Part shown: positions 6,817 to 12,286 of the stretch, piece by piece
Layout of the letters: every line of letters starts with the position of its first letter
Numbering within the stretch: position 1 is the first letter of the stretch
Assembly: GCA_001797465.1 (NCBI GenBank)
Contig: MGPQ01000010.1
Location: 186,001-250,000 of the forward strand
Direction: 5' to 3'
Source: Deltaproteobacteria bacterium GWB2_55_19
GTDB taxonomy: Bacteria > Desulfobacterota > GWC2-55-46
Length of the DNA: 64,000 nucleotides
Notes under the pieces: model-generated
Seen by the model: the letters and a program-made list of their open reading frames with translations, nothing else
Database searches by the model: none
What the model was told of the DNA's origin: nothing
Translations under genes and position numbers: made by a program

Positions 6817-8265
6817 TCAGACGATATCCCCGATGTGCCAGACCTCCTCGCCCGAGGCTCCTGCGTAGACGATCATCACCTCGCCGCGGCAGTCGCTCAA
6901 GGGGAGGCGTATTTCGTAGTTATTCGTTTTAAGCGACTCCGCAAAATGAAAGACCGAGGGCCTGAAGACCTCGCGGTCAAAGGCGACGTCAATCATTACG
7001 GATGAGAGCGACTCAAGCCCCTTTTCCCCGAATTTTTCTATCTTGATGACGCAGGTCTCTGTCTTCTCGTCTATCGAATACCGCGCCTTTACCTTAGGGC
7101 CCTTTCGCTTTGGGCAATGAGCGGCTTCCTCCGCCTCGAAAAGCGAGAACGGGCGCGCCCCCTTGCCGTAGCGTCTCTTCGGGTTATCGAGAGACTTAGA
7201 CGACGCGATAGAGAGGAGACGCTCCTCCACCGTGCGAATGGACAGCTCGCCGGAGTCTATCCCTATCCAGCGTCTGCCGAGCTTTTCCGCTACGGCAAGC
7301 GTCGTGCCCGCCCCGGCAAAGCAGTCGAGTACGAGGTCGCCCTCGTTCGAGGCGGCCTTTATGATTCGCGCGAGGAGTGCTTCGGGCTTCTGCGTCGGGT
7401 ACCCGGTCTTTTCGTCGTTGCTTAAGTGCATGGCGTCCGGGATGTCGTCCCAGACGTCGCCGACGAGCTTGTCTTCAATAAGCCAACTGTCCTGCTCTTT
7501 AAGGAAGTATTTGATCCTGATATTCCCGTTCTTAGTCTCGTAGATCCTGCCTTCTTTTCTGAGGGCTGAAATGGATGCGTCCGTATAATCGCCGCGCGGA
7601 GAGGTCTTGAACCACCTGCCGGATGAGTCCTGTCTGAAGCCGGCCTCGCCCTTCCTCACCCTCTTTTGCGTGAACTGCTGGTTGAAGACGCGCCCCTTTC
7701 CGCCGTACCAGAGTATTATATCGTGGTTCCTGGAGAACTGAGAGGCTTTTGCCTTTGCGCCTCTGCCGCCGTAGCTCCAGACGATGTCGTTAAGGAAGTT
7801 TTCCTCGCCGAATACCTCGTCCATGATTATCTTGACGTAATGTGCCTTCTTCCAGTCGAGGTGGACGAATATTGAACCGTCGTCCGAGAGTAGCTCGCGG
7901 AGGATTATGAGCCTTTCCCGGAGGAACTCTACAAAACCGGCGCCGATAATCTTATCGTCGTAGGCGCGAAGGTCTTTTTTGGATTTGAACGAGAGGTTCG
8001 TCGAGAAGGGCGGGTCGATGCAGACGAGGCGGAGGCCCGTCGTATTGTCCGAGTTTTTTATCAGCCCTTCCCGCTTCATCTCAAGGAGGGCTTTTAAGGC
8101 AGGCAGGTTCTCGCCGTGTATGAGCATGTTCGCGGGCGCACCCTTTCCAAAGGCCTTCACCTCTGAGAGCGGGGTCGTTTTGGAGGAGAGTATCCGGGAT
8201 TCCTTATTCTTGCCCGGATATATGAGTTCGCAAGCGGCATTTTTTTCAACAAGCCTTTTTACCAT
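6817..8265 (-). CDS. orphan DNA adenine/cytosine-N4 methyltransferase, beta class
   Basis: 482 residues. The catalytic motif IV is CIDPPFS near residue 90. The AdoMet-binding motif is VLDCFAGAGTTLAVAEKLG near residue 315. With the catalytic motif before the AdoMet motif, this is the beta-class order shared with type III Mod subunits. A YPTQKPEALLARII segment (motif X type) precedes motif I. The last 120 residues are an unrecognised C-terminal extension. No restriction endonuclease, Res subunit or specificity gene is adjacent, so it looks like an orphan methylase. The start is ATG at 8265 with a poor ribosome site. Confidence 0.88.
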   Translation of the reverse strand: MVKRLVEKNAACELIYPGKNKESRILSSKTTPLSEVKAFGKGAPANMLIHGENLPALKALLEMKREGLIKNSDNTTGLRLVCIDPPFSTNLSFKSKKDLRAYDDKIIGAGFVEFLRERLIILRELLSDDGSIFVHLDWKKAHYVKIIMDEVFGEENFLNDIVWSYGGRGAKAKASQFSRNHDIILWYGGKGRVFNQQFTQKRVRKGEAGFRQDSSGRWFKTSPRGDYTDASISALRKEGRIYETKNGNIRIKYFLKEQDSWLIEDKLVGDVWDDIPDAMHLSNDEKTGYPTQKPEALLARIIKAASNEGDLVLDCFAGAGTTLAVAEKLGRRWIGIDSGELSIRTVEERLLSIASSKSLDNPKRRYGKGARPFSLFEAEEAAHCPKRKGPKVKARYSIDEKTETCVIKIEKFGEKGLESLSSVMIDVAFDREVFRPSVFHFAESLKTNNYEIRLPLSDCRGEVMIVYAGASGEEVWHIGDIV

Positions 8266-10889: not shown

Positions 10890-11555
10890 TCAGTAGCTCT
10901 GGTAGAGCCAGACGACCTTGCCCAGCACGAACTCCCTGTTCAATTCGCCGGCGTAGACGGCGGTATGCGGAAATGTCGGGTTGTCGGGCTTAAGGACCAC
11001 CTTGTCAGAGTGGATGAATACCCTCTTGATGCTCACGCCCTCAAAGTTAAGCCACACGGCGTAGATGTCGCCGCTCACGAGCCTCTTGTCATTGACGTCT
11101 ATGCCGACGGTCGCGTCATGGAGTATATTCGGCGCCATCGCCTCGCCTCTGACCCGCAATGCCAGAGACCCTTTCACGAAGTCCTTCTTGAGGACCATAA
11201 TGCTATCGATGTGGTCGGTGCCGGGAAAGTCCCTCGGGCCGCCCGCGGACAGCATGTCATAGACCTTCGCGCAGACAAAGTGCTCCCCGAAAGCGGACCT
11301 CGGCTCGCAGGCGTGTTCCGCGTTTATCATGTCGTAGCTCGAAATGGGCCCTGAGCCGGTAAGGAGCCAGTCGAGCTTTACCCCGCCTATAAAGGATATC
11401 TTGCGCAGAGCCGTGATATCCGGGTTCCGCTTGTCCTTTTCGTAGTCGCTAATAGTGGCCACCCTGTTGAAATCAAGCCTCTTGGCAAATTCCGCCTGAT
11501 TGACCTTCAGGATATCCTGCCTGACGTAGCGTATTCTTTCACCGAGTGTGTTCAT
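10890..11555 (-). CDS. XRE/CI-type repressor with S24 peptidase fold, catalytic Ser replaced by Ala
   Basis: 221 residues from ATG 11555 (MNTLGERIRYVRQ). An earlier TTG frame to 11645 lacks support. Residues 5-65 are a helix-turn-helix of the phage CI type, ending in LDWLLTGSGP. Residues about 95-215 are a LexA/CI-like S24 fold. The nucleophile position of the usual G-(D/E)-S-M motif reads RVRGEAMAP: Ala139, codon GCG. The Lys dyad partner is present as Lys177 in VSIKRV. It is therefore probably a repressor that cannot self-cleave. There is no clear Shine-Dalgarno, and repeated GCGTAAAAT boxes lie upstream, so autoregulation is likely. Confidence 0.88.
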   Translation of the reverse strand: MNTLGERIRYVRQDILKVNQAEFAKRLDFNRVATISDYEKDKRNPDITALRKISFIGGVKLDWLLTGSGPISSYDMINAEHACEPRSAFGEHFVCAKVYDMLSAGGPRDFPGTDHIDSIMVLKKDFVKGSLALRVRGEAMAPNILHDATVGIDVNDKRLVSGDIYAVWLNFEGVSIKRVFIHSDKVVLKPDNPTFPHTAVYAGELNREFVLGKVVWLYQSY

Positions 11556-11568
11556 AAAATACAGTTGA

Positions 11569-11610
11569 GCGTAAAATTTCACTTGACATTTATACGCAGT
11601 AGCGTAAAAT
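11569..11610. promoter_or_regulatory. candidate operator of the CI-type repressor
   Basis: GCGTAAAAT occurs at 11569-11577 and 11602-11610, 33 bp apart (about three helical turns). The second copy forms an inverted repeat with TTATACGC at 11590-11597 (7 of 8 match, 4-bp centre). The sites lie immediately upstream of the repressor start, as expected for self-regulation. Confidence 0.5.
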
Positions 11611-11756
11611 GGCTCGATACCCTGATTGAGAAGTACAGTCTCCAATTAAACATACAATTTTTTGGATTTCTCATTTATAGCATTTAGCGGTCTTTCAGTC
11701 AATACGCAACCGGGAAAAAAGATAAAAAATATAACGAAAGGGGTTTATCGCGGGAT

Positions 11757-12209
11757 ATGGCCGTTAATTATTTAAGGGTTTTCGAGAGGATGCTCAAGGC
11801 CGGAAGGCTGAAAAACGGCTCACAGCTGGCAAAGGCCCTCGGCGTATCCCCGCAGGCGGTCTCGAATTACAAGAAGAGGGGGGAGCTGCCTGCGAGCCTC
11901 GTATTCAAGTTCGCGGAGACATACAGCGTCTCAATCGACTGGCTTATTACAGGGGTTGCCAGGCCCGGAGACTCAGCAGAGCTCTCGAGGCCCGCATACG
12001 CGAGCGAGGCGGACGGCCGCTATTCCGTAGACAGCGTAGACAAGGCCTGGTTGCCTTCAAGCATAAACGACCTTATGATGCTCTCGCCCGACGAGATTAT
12101 ATACGTCGGGAGGCTCCTTAAGGTGCTCCGGGGCCCGGAGAGGTATGTCCCCGCTGTAAAGGTCTGTATCGACTCGTTCCTAAAGGCGGGGGAGCTATCG
12201 AACCATTGA
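11757..12209 (+). CDS. phage CI-type helix-turn-helix protein
   Basis: 150 residues. The N-terminal 65 residues match the bacteriophage CI repressor HTH domain: LAKALGVSPQAVSNYKKRG is the recognition-helix region, ending SIDWLITG. No S24 peptidase domain follows; the C-terminal 80 residues are unrecognised and end in a short helical segment. It is divergent from the S24-type regulator with 200 bp between them. The DWL(L/I)TG hallmark is shared by both, so the pair may derive from one mobile-element regulatory module. The ATG at 11757 is preceded by a poor ribosome site (AACGAAAGGGG further upstream). Confidence 0.82.
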   Translation: MAVNYLRVFERMLKAGRLKNGSQLAKALGVSPQAVSNYKKRGELPASLVFKFAETYSVSIDWLITGVARPGDSAELSRPAYASEADGRYSVDSVDKAWLPSSINDLMMLSPDEIIYVGRLLKVLRGPERYVPAVKVCIDSFLKAGELSNH

Positions 12210-12246
12210 GGTCCATTTTATAGGTTGGTTGTGAGATCATGATCAG

Positions 12247-12286
12247 ACTGGCGGCCCCTCCACCGGAGGGGCCGCCAGTTTTTTTT
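12247..12286 (+). terminator. strong rho-independent terminator
   Basis: Perfect 15-bp stem (12247-12261 with 12265-12279), 3-nt loop, then eight T. It ends the CI-type gene. Confidence 0.93.

Follow-up and report, generated by a model that had tools for sequence, protein, structure and literature searches.

Gene and Domain Organization of the Locus

The analyzed window, i.e., the whole stretch of 64,000 nucleotides, harbors a gene for a 221-aa S24-fold repressor and, in divergent orientation, a gene for a small helix-turn-helix (HTH) protein, separated by a control region at positions 11556-11756 (Table 1). The source genome is a 2.6-Mb MAG assembly, and the relatives used for comparison are "Deltaproteobacteria" MAGs, comprising 48 genomes of the order.

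Table 1. Features of the S24 repressor locus (positions in the window; strand: +, forward; -, reverse;., unstranded).
Feature	Position	Strand	Remark
S24-fold repressor gene, 221 aa	10890..11555	-	ORF; ATG at 11555, stop 10890-10892
S24 domain, residues 93-221	10893-11279	-	
Codon 177, Lys of the S24 dyad	11025..11027	-	Alignment; invariant in 20 orthologues
Codon 139, GCG (Ala), S24 nucleophile position	11139..11141	-	Alignment
Codons 104-105, Ala-Gly at the scissile-pair position	11241..11246	-	Alignment; pair not conserved in the family
Linker, residues 70-92 of the repressor		-	Variable among orthologues
HTH part, residues 1-69	11349-11555	-	XRE-type (HTH residues 4-67)
Second, weaker operator-like site TACAGTTGAGCGTA	11560..11573	.	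Centres of this and the main site 33 bp apart
Putative rightward promoter TTGACA-N16-TAAAAT	11583..11610	+	Towards the HTH gene; main operator inside the spacer
Main operator-like site TACGCAGTAGCGTA	11593..11606	.	Palindrome TACGC-N4-GCGTA; order-wide conservation
Leftward promoter-like sequence TTGACT-N17-TATAAA	11674..11702	-	Towards the S24 gene; faces the rightward promoter
Partner gene, 150-aa Phage_CI_repr-type HTH protein	11757..12209	+	Divergent; PF07022, E 2e-10
Terminator-like hairpin ending the partner transcript	12245..12281	+	17 pairs, then TTTTT

In the Pfam search the repressor matches Peptidase_S24 (PF00717) at residues 98-205 (E 2e-12), with 47.2 bits against a cut-off of 23.3, which places it in the fold family, and HTH_3 at residues 8-64 (E 9e-8). 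It also matches PHROG 4, "transcriptional repressor" (E 9e-33). The protein is not a LexA, as it reaches 24.4 bits with the LexA equivalog TIGR00498 (curated cut-off 110.95) and its N-terminus is an HTH_3 domain without the LexA winged helix. The AlphaFold model (mean pLDDT 83.6, pTM 0.58), in which the mutual placement of the domains is unsure, matches Thermotoga LexA, phage 186 CI and the LexA S119A mutant, with a Foldseek probability of 1.0 to LexA, CI and 186 CI. The domains, the PHROG assignment and the structural matches bear out the preliminary description of a CI/LexA-like repressor, and together support the assignment of the protein to a repressor fold of CI/LexA type which lacks the nucleophile.

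Catalytic Residues of the S24 Domain

The Ser-Lys catalytic dyad of self-cleaving S24 repressors, like LexA and lambda CI, is absent from the protein, which combines Ala139 (motif RGEAMAP) with Lys177 (within VSIKRVF). The scissile bond, Ala-Gly or Cys-Gly in such repressors, is present as Ala104-Gly105, and the spacing of 34 from Gly105 to residue 139 is that from Gly85 to Ser119 in LexA. ORF and alignment thus confirm what had been read from the sequence before, namely a GEAM motif with Ala139 (GCG) next to a retained Lys177 and an in-register Ala104-Gly105 pair. The codon had also been described as one base away from TCG, and TCG is indeed found at this position in the orthologue L032 (92% identity).

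A sequencing slip at codon 139 was considered and rejected, as alanine (GCT) is also found in two further MAGs of the genus, and farther orthologues have alanine or glycine. No substitute serine nucleophile is conserved in the orthologue alignment (Ser130 is proline in L032, and Ser176 is mostly threonine). Since the nucleophile is absent and no such substitute was found, RecA-stimulated self-cleavage of the 221-aa protein seems very unlikely.

Variation of the Nucleophile Position Among Orthologues

A full-length orthologue with 45-92% identity was found in about 20 of the 48 genomes of the order. Residue 139 is serine in 10, glycine in 6 and alanine in 4 of 20 distinct close orthologues, and Gly137, Met140, Pro142, Lys177 and Arg178 are invariant among them. 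The codons at position 139 are GCG, GCT or GCC for alanine, GGA or GGC for glycine and TCG, TCC, AGC or AGT for serine. Several pairs differ by one base, e.g., the GCG described here and TCG in L032, or GGC in L040 and AGC in L038. By parsimony, at least seven changes among the three states are needed on the tree (minimum possible two), and the well-supported branches alone force two changes for alanine, two for glycine and three for serine. L032 groups with the genome studied here (support 100/99), and within the genus either two losses or one loss followed by a return to serine in L032 would fit the tree.

The scissile pair varies as well, being Ala-Gly, Ser-Gly, Ser-Arg, Ala-Lys, Val-Glu, Ser-Glu, Leu-Pro or deleted. 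Ala-Gly is also missing in the serine-bearing orthologues L006, L042, L007 and L055; in L003 and L040 it lies two residues earlier, where the alignment of the pair is uncertain. Some orthologues may still be able to cleave, as half of them have the serine and the sister L032 has the complete set of Ser, Lys and Ala-Gly. The preliminary description had proposed either a fixed alanine or a recent loss, and neither applies cleanly: residue 139 drifts between serine, alanine and glycine in a vertically kept orthologue group. Because of this drift, and because Ala-Gly is lost even in serine-bearing members, self-cleavage appears to be dispensable across the orthologue family and not lost solely in the protein described here.

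Purifying selection acts on the S24 domain, with a pairwise dN/dS of 0.09-0.18 within the genus. For the Ala-Ala pair L033/L034 the value is 0.09, for the Gly-Gly pair L036/L005 0.15 and for two serine versions 0.05. From the low values in the Ala-Ala and Gly-Gly pairs it follows that the domain is kept after the serine is gone, presumably for dimerisation. The HTH part is the most conserved part of the protein (mean column entropy 0.73 bits), followed by the S24 domain (1.12) and the linker (2.26). Neither internal stops nor frameshifts were found in any orthologue.

Predicted Promoters and Operators of the Control Region

Both promoters were identified as consensus matches; transcription is predicted to start around 11617 (+) and 11667 (-), at a distance of about 50 bp. 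Each of the 20 intergenic regions compared contains TTGACA, 16-18 bases and TAnnAT in orientation towards the HTH gene, and the spacer holds TACGC-N4-GCGTA or the degenerate TACGCAAnnnGGTA. The spacer operator of this conserved promoter between the S24 and HTH genes is TACGCnnnnGCGTA. A counterpart of the weaker site can be read by eye in most related intergenic regions.

A single copy of the exact promoter-operator composite is present in each of 15 of the 48 genomes, in 14 of them at the S24 locus, and its reversed control pattern in none of the 48; by our estimate, fewer than 0.1 occurrences are expected by chance over all genomes. In G407, a member of the same genus, both the S24 gene and the operator copy are missing. 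An extra exact composite lies at an ORF edge near trxA/thioredoxin-like genes (L109, G400:C80:4982-5008), possibly as a second target or by chance.

The main site is the only one in the source genome with one mismatch to TTTACGCN4GCGTAAA. A wider regulon is not proposed for this motif, since beyond the locus only sites with two mismatches were found, at about the control rate.

In 19 of the 20 regions the leftward promoter-like sequence is found in the form TTGAC(T/G/C)-N17/18-TATAAN, and TGn often precedes its -10 element; it is absent in L007. In a single region its score is reached by 5-8% of shuffles, and this promoter is credible only through its recurrence at many loci. In the genus of the source genome a conserved half-site TACGCAACCGG (11700-11715) immediately precedes the facing promoter and is perhaps a third operator half-site.

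Partner Gene and Genomic Neighborhood

The partner HTH gene adjoins the S24 gene at every locus long enough to show both, and the other flanks differ; the orthologue loci sit at different chromosomal places. S24 gene, partner and operator are found together in most families of the order. The neighbors in the window are chromosomal, including genes for tRNA-Met and an FKBP-type isomerase as well as pstS-like and phoB-like genes (names given from the sequence). No phage, plasmid or integrase context was found at the locus. Among viral contigs, phages and plasmids there is no close relative of the repressor; the viral contigs, searched with this single protein, yielded no relative, and the best phage match has 28% identity, among immunity repressors.

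Two paralogues of the partner are encoded in the source genome (G000:C10:22904-23344 and 87199-87588), and paralogues are present in most genomes of the genus; they share a conserved C-terminal helix motif DEIIYVGKLLKILR. No common pathway was obvious among the neighbors of the relatives or of the partner's paralogues. At 6817-8265 (-) there is a 482-aa ORF which resembles DNA methyltransferases and has a DPPF motif, without a restriction partner among the listed surrounding ORFs.

Comparison With Known Regulators

The face-to-face promoters of P2-like phages are separated by 40-60 bp, and the lytic one is overlapped by a repressor operator (PMC7498355). In phage 186, the lysogenic promoter is subject to interference from the lytic promoter, and the antirepressor Tum, which is under LexA control, brings about release (PMC7708051). 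At sequence level this layout, with face-to-face promoters and an operator over the early one, is found here, too. As in the 186/P2 switch, the operator covers the promoter that would be silenced, and a second small DNA-binding protein is encoded by the opposing transcript. The repressor resembles CI of 186 and P2-like phages in its S24-type fold, and 186 CI is likewise released without self-cleavage, by Tum; the structural match with 186 CI (structure 2fjr) has a sequence identity of only 13%. Unlike in these phages, however, the pair is chromosomal, without phage genes, integrase, CII or Tum nearby, and the partner is a Phage_CI_repr-type HTH protein instead of Apl or Cox, so the locus does not belong to a P2-like phage.

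With the RecA-responsive repressors LexA, lambda CI and P22 C2 the protein shares an HTH and an S24 domain, the dyad lysine and an in-register Ala-Gly pair, but not the nucleophile serine. A further LexA-family regulator without the catalytic serine is LexA of Synechocystis, which also lacks Ala-Gly (PMC4759255), for which modification has been reported (PMC7567884), and which regulates without self-cleavage (PMC4759255, PMC7567884). In contrast to the protein described here, it is the LexA of its genome and has a wide regulon. In our case, a canonical LexA, which has Ser, Lys and Ala-Gly, is encoded elsewhere as the only other S24 protein of the genome, only one operator region was seen, and the N-terminus is of the XRE type instead of a winged helix. 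Two further papers (PMC10754441, PMC12273997) were considered as precedents for a repressor without the serine and rejected as such.

LexA-family regulators without the serine and S24-fold repressors released without cleavage are therefore already known from Synechocystis LexA and 186 CI, respectively. In the open-paper literature, no description was found of an orthologue group which combines a Ser/Ala/Gly drift with a conserved gene pair and operator. Annotation pipelines label such proteins "LexA family" or "S24 peptidase", which implies an SOS response, and this group shows that selection can maintain an S24 domain which lacks the catalytic residue. The natural Ser/Ala/Gly series with the same partner and operator is suited to asking how cleavage-dependent release is replaced. 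Outside a phage, conserved face-to-face promoters would provide a chromosomal equivalent to the 186/P2 switch.

Proposed Regulation and Alternative Explanations

The locus is probably a chromosomal, vertically inherited CI/Cro-like two-gene switch, the repressor of which no longer cleaves itself. For the direction of regulation, the role of the partner and the inducing signal, we infer the following. The S24-fold protein would dimerise via its C-terminal domain, and its dimers would bind the TACGC-N4-GCGTA operators at 11593-11606 and 11560-11573, which lie about three helical turns apart. Binding at the main operator within the -35/-10 spacer would block the rightward promoter and silence the divergent HTH gene. 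Because the promoter of the S24 gene faces the rightward promoter, this silencing would relieve transcriptional interference on it, in the manner of CI in phage 186. With alanine at the nucleophile position (alanine, glycine or serine in the relatives), release should need no RecA-stimulated self-cleavage and could instead depend on the HTH partner, on an antirepressor or ligand, or on a modification. A more far-reaching version, possible but rather doubtful, is that of a domesticated bistable phage-type switch as old as the bacterial order, which has abandoned self-cleavage: the catalytic site would drift freely between serine, alanine, glycine and perhaps a regained serine, the rest of the domain would stay conserved, and the divergent HTH protein would be the releasing factor.

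As both HTH proteins are encoded beside the operator and binding by the S24 protein is deduced from sequence, the partner itself could be the operator-binding repressor, with the S24 protein modulating it or acting elsewhere. This is unlikely, as the partner paralogues elsewhere in the genome are not accompanied by a further promoter-operator copy, genomes without the S24 orthologue mostly lack the operator, and the strong conservation of the HTH in the S24 protein matches that of the operator. Cleavage by another nucleophile of the protein, or in trans by another S24 protein, would agree with the retained Lys177 and Ala-Gly, and trans activity of LexA towards other S24 proteins can occur in the laboratory. 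We nevertheless hold it to be highly improbable, since no alternative serine next to Lys177 is conserved and Ala-Gly is absent in several relatives, including serine-bearing ones. Likewise highly improbable is a decaying, once-cleavable prophage repressor in which Ser139Ala marks early pseudogenisation. S24/XRE repressors are typical of temperate phages, and here the nucleophile is missing with no phage nearby; against decay speaks that the S24 domain is still under purifying selection once the residue has changed, that most families of the order have orthologues accompanied by this partner and operator, and that the reading frames of all orthologues are intact.

More Distant S24 Relatives

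Farther S24 relatives (L008-L014; genus g77, family f46) within the same phylum are fused to a Phage_CI_repr-like HTH. Their nucleophile position is occupied by asparagine (GANM, GTNM or ADNM) and the dyad lysine is replaced by arginine (RRVF), which makes them a second group without both catalytic residues. Histidine is found at the nucleophile position in L017, L020 and L022.
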